Source: Fidelibacterota bacterium
GTDB taxonomy: Bacteria > Fidelibacterota > UBA8477 > JABMPR01
Direction of reading: 5' to 3'
DNA length: 33,181 nucleotides
Assembly (NCBI GenBank): GCA_021736185.1
Contig: JAIPGJ010000018.1
Span: 1-33,181, forward strand
Below are positions 5,102 through 20,712 of the stretch, piece after piece. The position numbers were made by a program, and so were the translations under genes. The notes beneath the pieces are model-generated. The model had not been told where the DNA came from. It was given only the letters and a program-made list of their open reading frames with translations, and made no database searches. The stretch's first letter is position 1. Every line of letters begins with the position of its first letter.

Positions 5102-5602
5102 ATGGAAATTTTAACCTTACTTTTGATTATCACCATCACCACGATCTCGGCTGTGACGATCTGGTTGAATCTACCCGGTAGTTTCCTCATGCTCATTTTT
5201 ATCTTCATTTGGGCCTGGATAGGTAATTTCATGCTGATTTCGGTTCCGGAGATAATTATTCTTCTGGGTCTCATGCTCTTGCTCGAGGTCCTTGAACTGT
5301 TTCTCAGCGGCCTGGCAGCCAAATATAGTGGCGCTGAAAAACGAACGGCTTTCCTGGCAGTTATCGGTGGAGTTCTGGGAACATTCGTTTTGGGTAGTAT
5401 GTTCTTTATTGTAGGTGCTGTACTCGGCTTATTTCTGGGATCCTATTTAGGAGCTTATTGGGGTGAGCACCAGGCGGGCAAATCTCCAGCAGAGGCGCGA
5501 CGGGCAGCGCTGGGTGCCCTCATGGGAAGTATTGCAGGGAAAGTGATCAAGAGCGCCACCATGGTGATTATTGGAGTATGGATGATCAGGGAGATTTTAT
5601 GA
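5102..5602 (+). CDS. DUF456 family integral membrane protein
   Basis: This 166-residue protein is almost wholly hydrophobic, with about five or six membrane segments (roughly 2-22, 25-45, 50-72, 84-103, 104-124 and 147-164). The glycine-rich central part (GGVLGTFVLGSMFFIVGAVL) followed by EHQAGKSPAEARRAALGAL is typical of DUF456 (PF04306), small inner-membrane proteins of unknown function in which glycine-zipper helices are interrupted by a short charged loop. The ATG at 5102 fits the first membrane helix directly; no clear ribosome binding site is seen. Its stop overlaps the start of the DUF4159 gene as ATGA (5599-5602), so the two are translationally coupled. It is the first gene of the five-gene run to 12801. 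Confidence 0.85.
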   Translation: MEILTLLLIITITTISAVTIWLNLPGSFLMLIFIFIWAWIGNFMLISVPEIIILLGLMLLLEVLELFLSGLAAKYSGAEKRTAFLAVIGGVLGTFVLGSMFFIVGAVLGLFLGSYLGAYWGEHQAGKSPAEARRAALGALMGSIAGKVIKSATMVIIGVWMIREIL

Positions 5603-6258
5603 TTCATAAAAGAGGACTAAGTTGGGCCTTATTTGCCCTGCTGGGAACAGGCTCTCTAGTGGCTCAGGATATTCATGTTACCCGCCTCCATTATGATGGA
5701 GGGGGCGATTGGTATGCCAATCCAAGCTCTCTGCCCAATCTCATTGCTTTTATAAACACAGAAACCAATATCCGGGTGGACCCAGAGGAATACAGAGTCA
5801 AAATCACTGACACAGATCTTTACAATCACCCCTTCCTCTATATGACCGGTCATGGGAATGTAAGTTTCAGTAAAGAAGAAGTGCAGAAGCTACGTGATTA
5901 TCTTGCCTCAGGTGGTTTTCTTCATGCTGATGATAATTATGGAATGGATCAGTCTTTTCGCCGTGAAATGAAAAAGGTATTCCCAAAAAAGGAATGGGTC
6001 GATTTACCCCATGATCACCCGATTTTCAGTTCATATTTTTCCATGATAAATGGATTGCCAAAGATTCATGAACACGATGGAAAAGCCCCTCAAGCGCTAG
6101 CCCTCTTCCATCATGGTCGCGTGGTGGTTCTTTACACCTACGAAAGTGACCTGGGGGATGGTTGGGAGGATCCCGAAGTCCATCAAGATGGGGAGAAAAA
6201 GCACCGTGATGCCCTGGAGATGGGTACGAACATTCTAATATATGCCTTCACTCATTAA
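5599..6258 (+). CDS. secreted DUF4159-domain protein
   Basis: This 219-residue protein has a Sec signal peptide (MIHKRGLSWALFALLGTGSLVAQ, cleaved near residue 23). The mature part opens with IHVTRLHYDGGGDWYANPSS, the characteristic start of DUF4159 (PF13709), and continues with FLYMTGHG and RDYLASGGFLHADDN near 105-119. DUF4159 is thought to adopt a class I amidotransferase-like fold but lacks its Cys-His-Glu triad; here HADDN stands where a nucleophile elbow would be. The start at 5599 is chosen because of GGGAG nearby and the ATGA overlap with the DUF456 gene; an in-frame ATG at 5578 would put seven extra residues before the signal peptide. Genes of this family often accompany DUF4175 proteins and MoxR/VWA clusters; here DUF4175 follows after 3 nt. 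Its function is unknown. Confidence 0.87.
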   Translation: MIHKRGLSWALFALLGTGSLVAQDIHVTRLHYDGGGDWYANPSSLPNLIAFINTETNIRVDPEEYRVKITDTDLYNHPFLYMTGHGNVSFSKEEVQKLRDYLASGGFLHADDNYGMDQSFRREMKKVFPKKEWVDLPHDHPIFSSYFSMINGLPKIHEHDGKAPQALALFHHGRVVVLYTYESDLGDGWEDPEVHQDGEKKHRDALEMGTNILIYAFTH

Positions 6259-6261
6259 GCA

Positions 6262-9200
6262 ATGACCCAACGAATCAATCCTGAACCAGCCCGCGTGGAC
6301 TCTCGCAGTCCGGAGCTCTTGAAACTGGCCCAACATGCCCGCAGTGAAGCTCGTGGAAAAGGCGCACTCCTTGGCGTTGCCGGATTTTCCACGATTATTA
6401 TCCTGGTCAGTCTTTTTATCTGGTTGGAAAGCTTTCGTTACTTCAATCCAGAATCAAAAGTGCTTTTACTAAGTATCCTGGGTGGACTGGGATTACTGGC
6501 CTTCGTTGGAATATTAGGGGTATTTTGGCTCTTAAAGAAACAACAAATACAGTCCACAAAACCAGAAAATCTGGCGTTGCGGATTGGTGAAAAACTCCCT
6601 GAAATTGGTGACCGGATTCTTAATGCAGTTCAATTAAGTAAGACGGTGGCTCCTGAGGGTATTTCCCGAAGCCTGCATGAAGCAGCAGTGGAATCTGGAA
6701 TAAATGTCATTGAACAGGTCCCATCAAGCCTCTTATTCCCAAGCGAAATTTTAAAACACTATTTGAAAAGAGTTGGAATTGGAGTTGGCGTCCTGCTGTT
6801 GCTGTACCTGGTCAATTTTCAAAGGACCAATGCAGCCATCGCTCGCTTGAGTCAACCCGAGGTCGCTTATGAATATCCCCTGCCCATTGAACTACAATTG
6901 AGCGTGCCGAGTAACCAGGTCTTGGCTGGAGATAGTTTGCTCCTCACAGGTCATGTTTCAGGACGTTCCCTGGACCAGGTTGAGGTGATCATACGGACGC
7001 GTAAAGATTCCAGCATTTTTCCTGTTCGTGTGTTAGACCAAAGCTTTAGCATGCCCATGAATCATTTGCTCAATAGTTTTACCGCCGTTGCCAGAGTTGC
7101 CAATACCCGGCCGTGGGAACCCTGGAAAATGATTGAATCAGCTGCTCTGGATGTCCAGGTCATCAACCGTCCCCTGGTCCAGGATTTAGCGGTTCGCATT
7201 CGACCTCCTGGCTATACCAGGCTGCCTACAGAAATTCTGACACGCAATATTATGGATATTAGCGGATTCAAGGGCTCGCGTATTATTATTGAAGGTCTTG
7301 CATCGAAAGAAATTGCCTCCGCTGTGCTCCATTTTAAGCAGGCTAAATCCATCCCCATCACCATGGAGGGACCTCGATTCAAGGTCTCATTTACACTCCA
7401 GCGACCCGATGAGATGTGGATTGAGTTGGTCGATCATGAGGATGTCCATAATCTGGATCCCCTGGTTTATCCCATTTATGTAGCCCATGATCTTCCACCG
7501 ATTATCCGGGTGCTCATTCCCGGCCAGGATGTGGTTTTGGGTGAAAACATGATCCTGCCTACTCGCTTGAAACTTGATGATGATTTTGGCTTTTCCAGGC
7601 TTGAGCTTAATTATCAGATACAACACCCTGACTATCTCATGGAAGATACCACCATCTACCAGGTGAAAATCGATTTGCCCAGCTCCGAATTGAGTTCTCT
7701 GGAATTCAATCATACCTGGGATATGAGTAAGCTGAGCATCATGCCAGAGGATGCCATTCAGTATTGGTTTAAGGTTTGGGACAACAATAGTATAGATGGC
7801 CCTCAACAGGCCTCAACTCAAAAGTGGTTGGCCAGACTACCCTCTTTGGATGAGATGTTTGAAGAAATTGCCCAGGGCAATGAAAAGGTCAAACAGGAAC
7901 AGGAAGATGTTCTTGAAATAGTCAAGGAAATCAAGGAAAAAGTGAGTGAGCTGGCTCTTGAAGTGCAAAAAGATCCCAATCTGTCCTGGGAACAGCAGCA
8001 GGAAGCCAGTGAGGCCATGGAGCAGGTCAAAGACCTTAAAGAGCAACTGGAGAACATCAGTAAGCAATTAGATCAAATGATGTCTTCGGCTGAGGAGCAA
8101 AACCTTTTCAGTGAAGAGACCCTGGATAAATATGCAGAGCTTCAACAGTTGATGGAACAGCTCATCACACCTGAACTCAGGGAAGCCATGGAACGTCTCC
8201 AGGAGGTCATGGATAAAGACAATCCCAGAGAGATGGAAGCCGCTCTTGAAGATTTTCAAGCAGCCATGGAAAATTTCCAAAAAAGTGTTGAGCGGACCCT
8301 GGAAATTTTTAAACAGATTGAGATTGAACAAAAAATTGATGAGCTGGCAACGCGCCTCAACGACCTGGCCGAAAGGCAGGAAGCATTAAACGCTGACATG
8401 AAGGAAGGCGATACAGCTGATGCTGCCACCCAGGAAGAGAAAATTGCCAGTGATTTTGATAAAGCCCAGCAACTGGCAGAGACCCTGGAAGATCTTCTCA
8501 ACCAATCTGAGGATCTCTCTTCAGAATCTGTTCAAGCATTGCAGGAGCAGATGCAGCAGGAACAAATAAGTCAGAATCTGGAAGAGGCAGCCCAGCTTAT
8601 GGCAGCCGGTGACATGTCCAAGGCGACACCTCCCTCAGAACAGGCCGAAAAGTCCTTGAAAAAGATGGCGGCTCAATCAAGTCAGATGCAATCAAATCTC
8701 CAGCAGCAAATGATGGCTGAAGTGATGTCCGAATTTCGGTCTGCCCTGCTTAAAACCTTAAGAATCTCACAGGCTCAAGAGGCATTGGAGGGGCCAACGG
8801 CCCAAACCTCGCGCCAGAGTTCGCTACTCCGGGATTATGCTGATTCTCAGATGGGACTCATGCAAGGCTTGCAGCAATTATCATCAGAACTCCAGGAATT
8901 GGGGAATAAGACTTTTGCTGTTTCTCCTGCCATGGGTCGCTCCATGGGCTCGGTTCAAGCGAATATGCAGGAAGCCATCAAAGAACTGGAAGCAAGAAAT
9001 CCAGGTAAATCCTCCCAGTTACAGGCAGCTGCCCGGGAAAGTTTAAATCGTCTGGCCAGACAACTGGCTAATTCCATGGAATCTCTCCAGGAGTCTGGAG
9101 AAGCCAGTGGCTTTAGTGAGTACATGCAGCAATTACAGCAAATGGCAGGGCAGCAACAGGGGCTGAACCAGCAGACCATGATGCAGCTGGGGGCTGGCAG

Positions 9201-14450: not shown

Positions 14451-15380
14451 ATGATTACCCCAGATCCTATTCAACCCGGTGCAACCATTGCGCTGATTTC
14501 ACCAGCTTCTGCACCAAAGCCTGAAAAGCTTGATCGGGGGATTGCCTATCTTCGCTCCAGGGGTTTTCAGGTCAAGGAAGGTGCTCATCTGCGAGGCAAA
14601 CATAAATATCTCTCAGGCTATGGTCCCGAACAGTTGGCAGATATTCACTGGGCTTTTGAAGATGATGACGTGGATTTGATCATGTGTAGCCGGGGTGGAT
14701 ATGGTACTCCGCGATTCCTGGATGATCTGGATTACGAACTGATTGCCCAACATCCCAAGTTTTTTATTGGCTATTCGGATATTACGGCCCTGCAATGCGC
14801 TTTGGCTGTAGAAACCGGACTGGTCACCATATCTGGTGTGATGGCTGCTGTTGAGATGGCCTCAGAAGACGGTATCGATCCCTATACGGAAAAGGTGTTT
14901 TGGGATTTAATCAGTAAACCCATGTCAGGCCAGGTGCTTAAAAATCCCAGTGATATGCCCCATGCAATTTTATCAAATGGACTGGGAGAAGGACCCCTGG
15001 TGGGTGGCTGTCTGTCACTTTTCAATAATCTTATGGGCACCCCTTATTTCCCCGATGTTGCTGGTGGCATTATGGTCCTCGAGGATATTGGAGAAAATGT
15101 TCAACATCTGGATCGCATGCTCTCTCAGTTTAAGATGGCCGGCTTTTTCCACGGGGAAGAGCGGATTAATGGACTCATGTTGGGTCAGTTTATCGACACC
15201 TGGGAAATGAGTGATGAGGATGATTTTCTCCTGGAGGAATTGGTGCATGACATTATTGGCGATGTTGAATTCCCCATTGTTTCCAATGTTGCCTATGGTC
15301 ATGGGATGCGAAAAATGACACTGCCCCTGGGAGCAAGAGTGAAGCTGAATGGAGCAAATGGGAGCTTGACGCTGATATGA
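14451..15380 (+). CDS. ldcA: LD-carboxypeptidase (peptidase S66)
   Basis: This enzyme removes the terminal D-alanine from murein tetrapeptides in the cytoplasm during cell-wall recycling. The 309-residue protein has PGATIALISPASAPKPEKL at the N-terminus, CSRGGYGTPRFLDDLD at 79-94, the nucleophile Ser109 in GYSDIT, GPLVGGCLSLFNNLMGTPY at 181-199, Glu211 in VLEDIGE and His284 in VAYGHG. These match the Ser-Glu-His triad and spacing of the family. The start at 14451 has AGGAAG just upstream; an upstream in-frame ATG at 14391 would place the terminator hairpin inside the coding region. The stop overlaps the YgjV-like gene as ATGA. MccF-type immunity peptidases share the fold, but LdcA is the likelier role. 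Confidence 0.93.
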   Translation: MITPDPIQPGATIALISPASAPKPEKLDRGIAYLRSRGFQVKEGAHLRGKHKYLSGYGPEQLADIHWAFEDDDVDLIMCSRGGYGTPRFLDDLDYELIAQHPKFFIGYSDITALQCALAVETGLVTISGVMAAVEMASEDGIDPYTEKVFWDLISKPMSGQVLKNPSDMPHAILSNGLGEGPLVGGCLSLFNNLMGTPYFPDVAGGIMVLEDIGENVQHLDRMLSQFKMAGFFHGEERINGLMLGQFIDTWEMSDEDDFLLEELVHDIIGDVEFPIVSNVAYGHGMRKMTLPLGARVKLNGANGSLTLI

Positions 15381-16006
15381 TTTTAGACTGGACTGAATGG
15401 CTGGGATATATTGCTTCCGTGATTGTTGCGGCTTCGCTCACCATGACAAATATTCGCCGTCTGAGGTGGTTAAATATGATTGGTGCCATTGCTTTTACTA
15501 TTTATGGTGCCATTCTACAGCTATATCCTATCCTGGTAGTAAATGGCTTTATCGTCGGTGTAAATATATTTTACCTCGTTCGCATTGCCCTGACGAAGGA
15601 GCATTTTCACCTGATTCCCATTTCATGGGATACCAGCATTTTTTTACCGCGCTTTATCGAGTTTTATATCCTGGATATTCGGAAACATTTTCCTGACATC
15701 ATTATCGAGGATCTGCGACAATACCGATCCGTTTTCATTACACGAAATGTGGTTCCTGTTGGCCTTTTTATCTATGAACGACTTGAAAACGGCATTATCC
15801 AGATCCACCTGGATTACGAAATACCCATGTATCGGGATTATGAGAGTGCCCGCTATTTTTTCCATGAATTTCGAGAGATGGTTCAGGAAAAGGGATTCCA
15901 TACCTATGTTGCGTATTGCCATGTACCCGTTCATCAACGCTATTTAAAAAGAATGAAATTCAAGGAAGATTCCAGCGAACCCGGTCGATTTGTTCGCAAA
16001 ATGTAA
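15377..16006 (+). CDS. YgjV-like membrane domain fused to a GNAT-like domain
   Basis: This 209-residue protein has two parts. Residues 1 to about 75 form three membrane helices (WLGYIASVIVAASLTMTNI, LNMIGAIAFTIYGAIL and PILVVNGFIVGVNIFYLV), typical of the YgjV inner-membrane family (PF10688). Residues 90-209 are soluble, with FLPRFIEFYILDIRKHFPD and VPVHQRYLKRMKFKE. This part looks like the end of an acetyltransferase fold (Tyr-rich helix and final strand), but I see no clear acetyl-CoA loop. I have seen the N-terminal half alone in other bacteria; the fusion may be a lineage form. It overlaps the ldcA stop by 4 nt, so it is probably co-expressed with cell-wall recycling. Its function is unknown. 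Confidence 0.7.
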   Translation: MILDWTEWLGYIASVIVAASLTMTNIRRLRWLNMIGAIAFTIYGAILQLYPILVVNGFIVGVNIFYLVRIALTKEHFHLIPISWDTSIFLPRFIEFYILDIRKHFPDIIIEDLRQYRSVFITRNVVPVGLFIYERLENGIIQIHLDYEIPMYRDYESARYFFHEFREMVQEKGFHTYVAYCHVPVHQRYLKRMKFKEDSSEPGRFVRKM

Positions 16007-16911: not shown

Positions 16912-18081
16912 CTAGGAGACGGGTCTAAGCCGTTCGTTTGTGAACAAAATGATATGATACGGATCTGATATACTGGTTGTAGAGGAGATGGAAAATATCT
17001 TGGCATCTTTTCCAATTTCAATACTCCCAATTCGATCTACCAGTCCTAAAGCTTTGGCTCCATTGAGGGTCGCCATCTTGATAATCTCATGAGGTTTAAA
17101 ACCATATTCAGCAGATGCTGATCTCATCTCAGCCCGGATGTCCATATGTTCGGCAAAGGTGCCTAGACAAATATTGAAGCCCTTGTCTTGAATCAATTGT
17201 CCTGGAGCAGTCCCCAGTTCCCATTGACGATTAAAACGAGGGTGCAGGCACATATGGAAAATTTCAGATCGTCCCTTGAGAAGGTCCAATTCATCCTCTT
17301 CCAGCATGATGACCTGACTCAAAATGGTTTCTTTTGCAGCAAAGGCATTATTAAGAAAATATCTGAGGGGCGAGGTGCGTGGCGCTTGCCAGCGGTAGTC
17401 CATATCTTCCTTGCCAAGGAGATACTGATAAATCCGGCCCTGTCCCTTCATAAAAAAGATGTCCTCATCCTTCATGAATGAAAGGGGAAGTGCAGTTCTC
17501 TCCTCTGTGCTGGATATTTTTCTGAAAACTTCCGGCCCAAGATTAAACAGAAATTCACCAGCATAATGGAATCGAGTCAGGTCGGTATTATTAAATTTAC
17601 CACGACCATTCCAAATTTCGAAGGCATTGCTATCACGAAAACCCTGGAGCACTTGAAAGACAACAGAATAAAGTCCCGAATGCTCGAGGTGGATACTTAT
17701 TTCAGGGTGCCGGGTACGAATTCCTATGGCAGCAGTGCCATAGTCATAACCCCGCTTAATGGCACTGAGCAGTTCGCTTTCGGCTTCCAGTTTGGAGCTG
17801 ACCCGCGATGCATTTTTTCCAGAATGTAGCCAGTTTAAAAAGGAGCCTCTCAGTGTAGATTGAGGGTCCGCCATGGAATAGTCTGGATGGAAAAGCGCGT
17901 TTACCAGGGAGGGACAAATAACGGAGTGTCCAAGATCTTGCACCTGTTTTCTGTCACCTGAAAATTCCGACTGTTTCCCAACAGCCGTGATTTTACCCTC
18001 GGCCAGAGTTAGGTATCCATCTTTAATAGGTTCGCTAACAATAGGAAGCACCCATTCGGAAAAATATGTACGTTTAACCAT
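16912..18081 (-). CDS. amidohydrolase-superfamily protein, probably catalytically inactive
   Basis: This 389-residue protein has the overall layout of the deaminase-type amidohydrolases (MtaD/SsnA/aminofutalosine deaminase): a small beta-domain at the start (GYLTLAEGKITAVGKQSEF), a barrel, and the family C-terminus (PHEIIKMATLNGAKALGLVDRIG, then SIEIGKDAKIF). The metal-binding sites are altered. The expected NAHxH after strand 1 is NALFHPDYS, so the first His is Leu. The stretch that should hold the next His reads LSQVIMLEEDELDLL. The HCPRSN-like motif is MCLHPRFN. The final GTDS-like Asp motif is ICLGTFAEH, with Phe instead of Asp. The frame is intact over its whole length, so this is a maintained protein rather than a decayed gene. 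Its role is unknown. It is divergent from the chorismate mutase gene. Confidence 0.8.
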   Translation of the reverse strand: MVKRTYFSEWVLPIVSEPIKDGYLTLAEGKITAVGKQSEFSGDRKQVQDLGHSVICPSLVNALFHPDYSMADPQSTLRGSFLNWLHSGKNASRVSSKLEAESELLSAIKRGYDYGTAAIGIRTRHPEISIHLEHSGLYSVVFQVLQGFRDSNAFEIWNGRGKFNNTDLTRFHYAGEFLFNLGPEVFRKISSTEERTALPLSFMKDEDIFFMKGQGRIYQYLLGKEDMDYRWQAPRTSPLRYFLNNAFAAKETILSQVIMLEEDELDLLKGRSEIFHMCLHPRFNRQWELGTAPGQLIQDKGFNICLGTFAEHMDIRAEMRSASAEYGFKPHEIIKMATLNGAKALGLVDRIGSIEIGKDAKIFSISSTTSISDPYHIILFTNERLRPVS

Positions 18082-18102
18082 GCTACAATGTAATTAGGAT
18101 TT

Positions 18103-18435
18103 ATGGATTACGTATCAGGAATTGAAAATGAGTCTCGGCTGAAGGCCTTTTCGTCTATATTAGCGCGTATGACAGATAAAATATCAGAACACCGGAAAAA
18201 TATAGATGACCTGGATACACGGATTTTACAATTAATCCAGGAAAGGGTTGATGAAGCTATAAGTATCAGACACCTGAAAAATCAGCAGGGTTTACCTCTA
18301 TTTACTCCAGAAAGAGAAGCGGATTTGATCAAGCGCCTCATCCAAAAATCAGCAGGTCACCTTCCCCCGGAAGTCATTGAAGATATCTGGAAGACCATCA
18401 TCAGAGGGGGAAAGCGAACCGGAGACAGTCAATAA
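18103..18435 (+). CDS. chorismate mutase, AroQ type
   Basis: This enzyme converts chorismate to prephenate for phenylalanine and tyrosine synthesis. It is a short, all-helical domain: EHRKNIDDLDTRILQLIQER (about 29-48), then RHLKNQQGLPLFTPEREADL (about 56-75) and a final helix PPEVIEDIWKTII. The family's active-site residues are present as Arg31, Arg48, Lys59, Arg71 and Glu72. There is no attached prephenate dehydratase or DAHP synthase domain. Two starts are possible: 18103 (AGGA 3 nt upstream, 110 residues) and the ATG at 18169 (88 residues, exactly the domain, but without a ribosome binding site). The first 22 residues look like an added tail. A TGCTACAAT sequence at 18081 could be an extended -10. 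Confidence 0.87.
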   Translation: MDYVSGIENESRLKAFSSILARMTDKISEHRKNIDDLDTRILQLIQERVDEAISIRHLKNQQGLPLFTPEREADLIKRLIQKSAGHLPPEVIEDIWKTIIRGGKRTGDSQ

Positions 18436-18536: not shown

Positions 18537-19472
18537 ATGAGTAGAAAAAAAATATCATTGATCGGTGGGGGACAGATTGGTCAGATCTTGGCGCTTATCG
18601 CTACCCAAAAAGAATTAGGTGATGTGGTTCTTTTAGATATCCCTGACTTTGAGGGACCGGTGAAAGGGAAAGCCCTGGATTTGATGGAAATGCGTCCGCT
18701 GGAAGGTTATGATGTGAATGTTAAAGGAACTAGTGATTATGCTGACATCGCTGATTCAGACGTCATCATTATTACAGCAGGTGTTCCTCGCAAACCAGGT
18801 ATGTCTCGCGATGATTTACTGGGTATTAATCTCAAGATCATTTCAAATGTTGCTGAGAATGTTAAAAAATATGCCCCCAAGGCATTTGTGATTGTCGTTT
18901 CCAACCCGCTGGATGCCATTGTTTATGCCTTCTACAAGGTTTCTGGTTTTTCAAAAAACAAAATTATCGGTATGGCCGGAGCTCTGGATTCCTCGCGTTT
19001 TAAGGCCTTTATCGCCATGGAAACCGGATACTCAACTCAAGATGTCTCCTGCCTCGTCCTGGGTGGACATGGTGACACCATGGTTCCCCTTACCCGCCTG
19101 GCCACGGTCGGTGGCGTACCAGTCAGCGAATTGTTGGATGCAGAAACCTTAGACGCTATTGAGAAAAGAACCAGAATGGCTGGTGGTGAGATTGTCAAGC
19201 TCCTGGGAAATGGTTCCGCATTTTTCAGCCCGGCCCAGTCCGCCATAGAAATGGCTGAAGCCTACCTCATGGACAAAAAACGTATTATCCCCAGTGCTGC
19301 ATTGTGCGAGGGCGAATACGGCATTGATGGCTTATTCATTGGTGTCCCCTGTGTTATTGGTGCAGGCGGAATTGAAAAGATTATCGAAGTAAAATTGAAT
19401 GATGATGAAAAATCAGCACTCAAAGTTACAGCTGAACATGTTTCCAGTGTGGTTGCTGAAACCAAACTCTAG
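18537..19472 (+). CDS. mdh: malate dehydrogenase, LDH-like type
   Basis: This enzyme oxidises malate to oxaloacetate with NAD in the TCA cycle. The 311-residue length is normal for the LDH-like MDH group. The Rossmann loop GGGQIG is at 10-15, and Asp34 in LLDIPDF sets NAD preference. Arg85 in GVPRKPGMSR is the malate-selecting arginine (Gln in lactate dehydrogenases), with Arg91 next to it. Asn123 (VVSNPLD), Asp151 and Arg154 (LDSSRF) and the catalytic His178 in GGHGDTMVP are all present. AAGGAG is 7 nt before the ATG. It has its own promoter and a strong hairpin after it, so it is probably a single-gene unit, well expressed. Confidence 0.97.
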   Translation: MSRKKISLIGGGQIGQILALIATQKELGDVVLLDIPDFEGPVKGKALDLMEMRPLEGYDVNVKGTSDYADIADSDVIIITAGVPRKPGMSRDDLLGINLKIISNVAENVKKYAPKAFVIVVSNPLDAIVYAFYKVSGFSKNKIIGMAGALDSSRFKAFIAMETGYSTQDVSCLVLGGHGDTMVPLTRLATVGGVPVSELLDAETLDAIEKRTRMAGGEIVKLLGNGSAFFSPAQSAIEMAEAYLMDKKRIIPSAALCEGEYGIDGLFIGVPCVIGAGGIEKIIEVKLNDDEKSALKVTAEHVSSVVAETKL

Positions 19473-19487
19473 ACAGTTGATTACTTC

Positions 19488-19519
19488 GGAAAGGGGAGTG
19501 CCGTGGCACTCCCTTTTCC
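19488..19519 (+). terminator. hairpin terminator after mdh
   Basis: A 15-bp stem with one G-T pair: GGAAAGGGGAGTGCC (19488-19502) pairs with GGCACTCCCTTTTCC (19505-19519) around a 2-nt loop. A run of T is inside the 3' arm rather than after it. It lies 15 nt after the mdh stop. Confidence 0.75.
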
Positions 19520-19521
19520 AT

Positions 19522-20712
19522 TTGTATAGGTGGGTGTCCTTTAGCTTTCTCGCCTTGCTCTCTGTGGCATGCGATACGGATCTGATCCCTGATATCGACA
19601 AGGAGCTCAGTCCAGAGGCCCAGGCTCTGGTTGACAGCGCATTCGCTCCCTATGTTGCAGCGGATACCTTAGTGGATCACCATGTCCATTTCCTGGGTCT
19701 TGGAAATACATCAAGTGGTATCGAGGTAAATCCCGATACTCGTTCCTTTTTCCATCCTATTAAATTGACCCGGTTTAATTATTTCATGGATGCCGGCAGC
19801 ATTACGAATGAAGCGCTGGCAGACGAACAATATCTGCAATATCTCATGGCGCAAATTGAAAGAATTCCGGCAAATATTCAAATTCTGGCTTTGGCCCTGG
19901 ACCGCTATTATGATGAAAATGGAGCTGTGGATCCAGAAAATTACGAAATTTATATTCCCAATGAATATGTGGTGAGCCTCAGTCAGCTCTACCCAGATAG
20001 AATCGTTCCAGCCATATCGGTTCACCCCTATCAGCAGGATGCGGTGGAAGCACTTGAAAAGTGGGCATCCAGGGGAGTGCGAGTGGTGAAATGGGTTCCT
20101 AATGCACAGGGAATTGATCCATCCTCACCTCTCTGTGATCCCTTCTATGCTGCCATGAGCAGTCTTGATATGGTGCTTTTAAGCCATGCTGGGACCGAGC
20201 AGGCACTGGACTCTCAGGGGCGTCAGCACCTGGGCAATCCTCTCTTATTGCGTCGGGCTCTTGACTCCGGAGTGAAAGTCATTGTCGCCCATTGTGCGAC
20301 GGCTGGCACCTCGGTGGATCTGGATGATCCCACACTTCCTGAGATTGATAATTTCTTACTTTTTATGCGTCTATTTGATAATCCTGAATATGAGGGGACC
20401 CTTTTTGCAGATATTTCTGGCATGACCCTGGTCAATCAGGTTGGAAATTCATTAAAGGAAATATTAGCGCGACAGGATCTGCACACCCGACTTCTGTATG
20501 GAAGCGACTATCCGTTACCGGCTGTAGACATATTGAATCAGAACTACGCCCTTGGTTTGATGGGTTACCTCAATGAAGATATTATCGGGGAATTAGACGA
20601 AATTCAGGCGGTGAATCCCTTACTCTATAGCTTTGTTCTTATGCGATTTTTGCAACATCCTGAGAGTGGTGCACACTTTTCAGAAGATCTATTCAGGAAT
20701 AAGCTCCCGTAG
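19522..20712 (+). CDS. lipoprotein amidohydrolase (amidohydrolase family 2)
   Basis: This TIM-barrel hydrolase has a lipoprotein signal ending FSFLALLSVAC (lipobox, Cys at residue 17 from the proposed start), so it is probably attached to a membrane on the outer side. The active-site landmarks are all there: DHHVHFLGLG (HxH), VKWVPNAQGIDP, LLSHAGTEQA (His), VIVAHCAT (His) and LLYGSDYPLP (Asp). These fit the PF04909 amidohydrolases, which include decarboxylases and lactonases. The substrate is unknown. The start is uncertain: I propose TTG at 19522 because it gives a short signal with an arginine; GTG at 19534 is an alternative. The ATG at 19399 is in frame but would read through the mdh terminator hairpin, so I reject it. 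Confidence 0.8.
   Translation: MYRWVSFSFLALLSVACDTDLIPDIDKELSPEAQALVDSAFAPYVAADTLVDHHVHFLGLGNTSSGIEVNPDTRSFFHPIKLTRFNYFMDAGSITNEALADEQYLQYLMAQIERIPANIQILALALDRYYDENGAVDPENYEIYIPNEYVVSLSQLYPDRIVPAISVHPYQQDAVEALEKWASRGVRVVKWVPNAQGIDPSSPLCDPFYAAMSSLDMVLLSHAGTEQALDSQGRQHLGNPLLLRRALDSGVKVIVAHCATAGTSVDLDDPTLPEIDNFLLFMRLFDNPEYEGTLFADISGMTLVNQVGNSLKEILARQDLHTRLLYGSDYPLPAVDILNQNYALGLMGYLNEDIIGELDEIQAVNPLLYSFVLMRFLQHPESGAHFSEDLFRNKLP

Follow-up and report, generated by a model that had tools for sequence, protein, structure and literature searches.

The window, the whole 33,181-nt stretch of DNA that was analysed, comes from a member of Candidatus Neomarinimicrobiota, within an order of marine bacteria, and its reverse strand carries a gene for an amidohydrolase-fold protein, P0001 (16912..18081, stop codon included). 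The open reading frame, as translated from the window, begins with ATG and runs for 389 codons without an internal stop; the preliminary description of an intact, full-length frame was correct. On the forward strand lies a divergent gene for an AroQ-type chorismate mutase (18103..18435; PF01817), a neighbour found in the genus only, followed by a gene for malate dehydrogenase (18537..19472, forward strand; PF00056/PF02866). The start codons of P0001 and the mutase (18081-18103) are only about 21 bp apart, meaning that either the promoters overlap coding sequence or the mutase starts further in. In all 11 loci of the order examined, which span two families, malate dehydrogenase is the facing neighbour of the P0001-type gene; in most of the genus the mutase gene separates the two, and the downstream neighbours vary between families. 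Malate dehydrogenase is the only potential partner gene with a fixed place beside it; this adjacency may be plain inheritance, and the operon context is at most a weak hint of function. Malate dehydrogenase is adjoined by an amidohydrolase gene of another family (19399-20712, forward strand; Amidohydro_2, PF04909), whose product has a lipoprotein-like N-terminus and HVH, HAG and GSD metal-type motifs; this gene is absent from some members of the genus. A further gene (15377-16003, forward strand) encodes a 209-aa protein that is conserved across the order (41-89% identity) and has zero Pfam matches at 1e-5; its N-terminus resembles a membrane protein and its C-terminus an acyltransferase.

What kind of protein is P0001? 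It matches the Amidohydrolase superfamily profile PF01979 at 48.8 bits, above the cut-off of 25. Its score with the NCBIfam profile for aminofutalosine deaminase, NF006269, is 44.9 bits (cut-off 320), and its other NCBIfam matches (TRZ/ATZ hydrolases and 5'-deoxyadenosine deaminase) are weak and far under cut-off. A search of a plasmid collection gave zero matches. An AlphaFold2 model made with 30 family members has a mean pLDDT of 92.0, a pTM of 0.91 and eight barrel strands in order; for a metal-retaining relative, the pLDDT is 90.0 and the pTM 0.90. The predicted fold is a (beta/alpha)8 barrel with a flanking beta-sandwich. When the P0001 model was compared with the PDB using Foldseek, the top matches were all amidohydrolases (E down to 9e-25), and the highest TM-scores among the matches listed (TMq 0.81) belonged to the H. 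pylori aminofutalosine deaminase (7lkj/7lkk) and Nitratiruptor Nis_0429 (4m51).

In mononuclear aminohydrolases, the metal is held by an HxH motif on strand 1, a His on strand 5 and an Asp on strand 8, and catalysis depends on a Glu after the strand-5 His, which acts as a proton shuttle, plus a His on strand 6. The ligands and the catalytic Glu were assigned to strands 1, 5, 6 and 8 from established aminohydrolase knowledge and from relatives aligned to Zn-bound homologues; substitutions were read from an alignment of the order's own sequences (the derived clade) with same-phylum relatives (27-34% identity) and outgroups from other phyla. The motifs quoted in the preliminary description are all present in P0001: VNALFHPD (60-67), ILSQVIML (253-260), CLHPRFN (278-284) and CLGTF (305-309). 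At the end of strand 1 (residues 60-67; 17881..17904, reverse strand), relatives have HTHLE and the derived clade LFHPD: the first His of HxH is replaced by L63, H65 is kept, and the parental Glu is now D67, with H65 and D67 invariant in all 20 derived-clade sequences. At the end of strand 5, where relatives have HLAES or HMAM, the ligand His is replaced by P199 (17485..17487, reverse strand), and the catalytic Glu three residues further on is gone clade-wide. The strand-6 His is Gln in 16 of the 20 orthologues (Q256 in P0001; 17314..17316, reverse strand) and is retained in the other four. At the end of strand 7 (residues 278-285, CLHPRFNR; 17227..17250, reverse strand), CPR of the relatives corresponds to HPRF, with an invariant H280 in place of Cys and F283 and R285 as new invariant residues. 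At the end of strand 8 (residues 309-312, FAEH; 17146..17157, reverse strand), GTD or GTE corresponds to GTF: the ligand Asp/Glu is replaced by an invariant F309, and H312 is newly invariant. The C-to-H change at 280 and the D-to-H change at 312 are clade-specific and fixed. With L63, H65, P199 and F309 at the four ligand positions, P0001 keeps one metal ligand in four. The earlier statement that most metal-binding residues are lost holds in this sense, but it overlooked the loss of the strand-5 His, and the second His of HxH is retained. Of all the changes, the loss at strand 5 is the strongest single sign.

Are these substitutions peculiar to one genome? Of the order's 23 genomes, 20, from two families, contain a full-length orthologue with no stop or frameshift and 47-88% identity; the three genomes without an orthologue include the two least complete (63% and 72%). 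All 20 lack the first His (L63, with Met in two), the strand-5 His (P199) and the strand-8 Asp (F309). The possibility that orthologues keep the full His/Asp set, raised at the outset, is contradicted by these shared losses. All 20 orthologues are complete and have these losses in common, so the substitutions are not a local mutation. An error of sequencing or assembly, like a mutation confined to this genome, has nothing in its favour; since 20 species-level genomes from two families carry the same substitutions, it can be ruled out, and its probability is close to nil.

Within the genus, pairwise dN/dS is 0.03-0.08 (median 0.042; 35 pairs with estimable dS, most of the remaining pairs being saturated at synonymous sites), rather than near one, the other result that the preliminary description had said would count against it. 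The gene is thus under purifying selection. Differences at codon positions 1, 2 and 3 are 0.16, 0.09 and 0.53, with the third exceeding the second about six-fold. The codons at the replaced sites vary: six Leu codons are found at 63 and two Phe codons at 309, and CCC, CCT, CCA and CCG are all present at 199 across the order. The use of four Pro codons at 199 and both Phe codons at 309 indicates that the amino acids are maintained even as their codons diverge. Across the genus, the proteins are 72-88% identical, inside the range of neighbouring conserved genes. An intact gene that is decaying, as a chance survivor of the loss of the futalosine pathway, would be in keeping with the missing canonical residues and with an order that lacks MqnA and MqnD. 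However, a dN/dS of about 0.04 and an identity typical of neighbouring genes exclude decay, as does the absence of any disrupted copy among the orthologues, making this explanation highly improbable.

With a single ligand left (the first His, the strand-5 His and the strand-8 Asp are all missing), P0001 should be unable to hold the canonical metal, and both the metal and metal-dependent deamination would have been lost. Some amidohydrolases do without the strand-8 Asp; for example, the triazine hydrolase TrzN is active without it. The Foldseek results place P0001 close in fold to such enzymes, raising the idea that ordinary aminohydrolase chemistry tolerates the changes. This is very unlikely given that the first His, the strand-5 His, the strand-8 Asp and the catalytic Glu are jointly missing, and mostly the strand-6 His too. 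Since three of the four metal-holding residues are lost, P0001 would no longer be the deaminase of the vitamin K pathway; its residues indicate that it has very probably left the ancestral deaminase role and been kept for another job. An intact, conserved homologue that is without the catalytic residues of its family is what the term pseudoenzyme denotes, and P0001 would qualify as one by sequence.

The mouth of the barrel offers a view of what that job might be. Clade-invariant charged residues are enriched there (11/26 vs 8/78 elsewhere; p=0.0007), as are residues that are fixed in the clade and seldom seen in relatives (17/45; p=0.005), both in a post hoc test at three loop lengths; invariant residues of all types show no significant enrichment at the mouth (p=0.13). 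The set at the mouth includes D67, R122, T123, H131, E176, F177, P199, H280, F283, R285, W287, F309 and H312, and four His are invariant in the clade (65, 131, 280 and 312). Because charged and newly fixed invariant residues gather at the mouth, the substrate-binding site appears to have been rebuilt rather than to be drifting. The residues are mostly basic and aromatic, which suggests an anionic ligand.

The main uncertainty is whether P0001 is a pseudoenzyme or has a relocated active site. In the second case, it would be an active enzyme that catalyses another reaction, using either a relocated metal site or metal-free acid-base chemistry by H65, D67, H280 and H312, with E176. These four residues are invariant in 20/20 members, two of them through the fixed, clade-specific changes at 280 and 312; strands 7, 8 and 1, which carry them, are adjacent in the barrel; the newly fixed residues gather at the mouth; and the four invariant His could make another metal site. 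On the other hand, L63, P199 and F309 place hydrophobic residues at the position of the metal and the hydrolytic water, and the conserved basic residues suit binding equally with catalysis. An active enzyme of this kind is unlikely. The narrower proposal, that the four residues on strands 1, 7 and 8 make up a novel centre, metal-based or acid-base, for a reaction new to the amidohydrolase superfamily, is somewhat more doubtful still.

Where did P0001 come from? Maximum-likelihood trees support the derived clade at 100/100 and group all Neomarinimicrobiota homologues into a single clade (100/99), leaving unsettled the branching order among the same-phylum genome G024, family f8, the derived clade and the remaining families. 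Among the outgroups, one gene (L089) follows genes for MqnE and MqnC, both over curated cut-offs; a second (L090) follows MqnC; and two more (L157 and L135) are followed by MqnA/D-like proteins, recognised by eye only and with zero NCBIfam matches. Within the phylum, the G024 homologue retains HLAES, the strand-6 His and GTD, in a 65% complete MAG in which the protein is cut by the contig edge and the strand-1 motif lies outside the view. Downstream of it are genes for a UbiA-like prenyltransferase with MqnP matches, a UbiX-like protein and a UbiE/MenG methyltransferase, and the genome has an MqnA/MqnD-type gene. The outgroup operons and this one incomplete MAG point to an ancestral function in the futalosine pathway. 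In the order of P0001 itself, PF02621 (MqnA/MqnD) is found in 0/23 genomes and MenD is over its curated cut-off in 23/23; the futalosine pathway in which an aminofutalosine deaminase would act is missing by this measure. Beyond this order, a futalosine-type menaquinone locus is seen in a same-phylum genome (L161, 1-2913), whereas the majority of the phylum members examined lack both MqnA/MqnD and an above-cut-off MenD. The distribution of quinone pathways in Neomarinimicrobiota thus looks patchy.

The metal-retaining homologues of other families in the phylum (the A3/L031-L057 set, and 6717-7928, reverse strand, in L071) would constitute, from their residues, a second, intermediate class. They are the nearest relatives of P0001, with similar length, and MqnA/MqnD was likewise not found in those of their genomes that were examined. 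Unlike P0001, they keep HxH, the strand-5 His, the strand-6 His and the strand-8 acidic ligand, mostly as GTE rather than GTD; the catalytic Glu is gone. The gene neighbourhood also differs. Outside the order, the relatives' genes are flanked differently, several of them by a gene of baeRF family 10; such a gene (for example, 5346-6485, reverse strand, in L071) adjoins the metal-retaining amidohydrolase gene in several families of the phylum (L070-L073 and L076). The idea that these relatives are the true aminofutalosine deaminases of their genomes is not supported, because MqnA/MqnD is absent where examined and several adjoin baeRF family 10 rather than mqn genes. A canonical paralogue of the same subfamily, which could be a heteromer partner, was not found in the order of P0001, where the next-best matches, remote amidohydrolases, score no higher than about 28 bits. 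Because the metal residues persist in relatives that have no mqn genes, while the catalytic Glu does not, loss of the catalytic apparatus looks stepwise. We infer the order of the steps from residue states, and do not take it as proven, because branching inside the phylum is unsettled.

Taken with the shared losses and the low dN/dS, the original reading of P0001 as a selected pseudoenzyme or one with new chemistry is supported, and the first half of that reading is favoured: P0001 is probably a selected pseudo-deaminase that acts by binding, as a regulatory or structural subunit. Its ancestor would have been an aminofutalosine-deaminase-like enzyme of the futalosine menaquinone pathway, kept in Neomarinimicrobiota as an orphan after that pathway was absent or replaced. 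The proton-shuttle Glu would have been lost first; in a later step, in this bacterial order, three of the four metal ligands would have followed. The (beta/alpha)8 fold would have been retained throughout and its mouth re-equipped with mostly basic and aromatic invariant residues. The present role of P0001 may be to bind a small anionic metabolite, a protein partner or both, an anionic metabolite or a protein partner being the most likely ligand.

How does P0001 compare with known systems? Aminofutalosine deaminase of the MqnX type shares its fold, and the neighbours of P0001 in the tree lie in mqn operons, including the G024 member with its catalytic set in an mqn-type locus. P0001 differs from that enzyme in its residues, in its low profile score and in belonging to an order with MenD and without MqnA/MqnD. 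The pseudoenzymes known among amidohydrolases come mostly from the dihydroorotase/hydantoinase branch. For example, pseudo-dihydroorotase (pDHO/PyrX of Pseudomonas, and the pDHO domain of C. thermophilum) has lost its zinc ligands and is inactive, and it is required for the activity and assembly of ATCase (PMC7053772). P0001 may be likened to it as a conserved amidohydrolase fold minus metal ligands, by analogy and not by family membership. It differs in belonging to another amidohydrolase branch and in that the ATCase gene does not adjoin it: no pyrB-like gene is found among its annotated close flanking genes. A second example is the dihydropyrimidinase-like CRMP family, which keeps the fold and a cavity resembling an active site; CRMP-4 retains two of six metal-binding residues, and the conserved function of the family differs from that of dihydropyrimidinase (PMC4051505). 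Again the likeness, a retained fold with most metal-binding residues gone, would be one of analogy with proteins outside the family of P0001, and CRMPs differ in being animal neuronal proteins of the hydantoinase branch, with the loss in another subfamily. A limited literature search found no pseudoenzyme from the deaminase branch of amidohydrolases and none named for this subfamily, and no paper on Marinimicrobia and futalosine. P0001 would be a new instance of the amidohydrolase pseudoenzymes, alongside pseudo-dihydroorotase and CRMP, in the deaminase branch.

What are the implications of this family? First, it is a warning for automatic annotation, which would label the P0001 gene an active amidohydrolase. 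Second, apparent intermediate stages coexist in one phylum: a homologue with its catalytic set in a pathway locus, homologues that retain the metal residues without the Glu, and a clade that has lost the metal site. Because these stages coexist, the path from an enzyme to a non-enzyme, or to new chemistry, can be tested directly.
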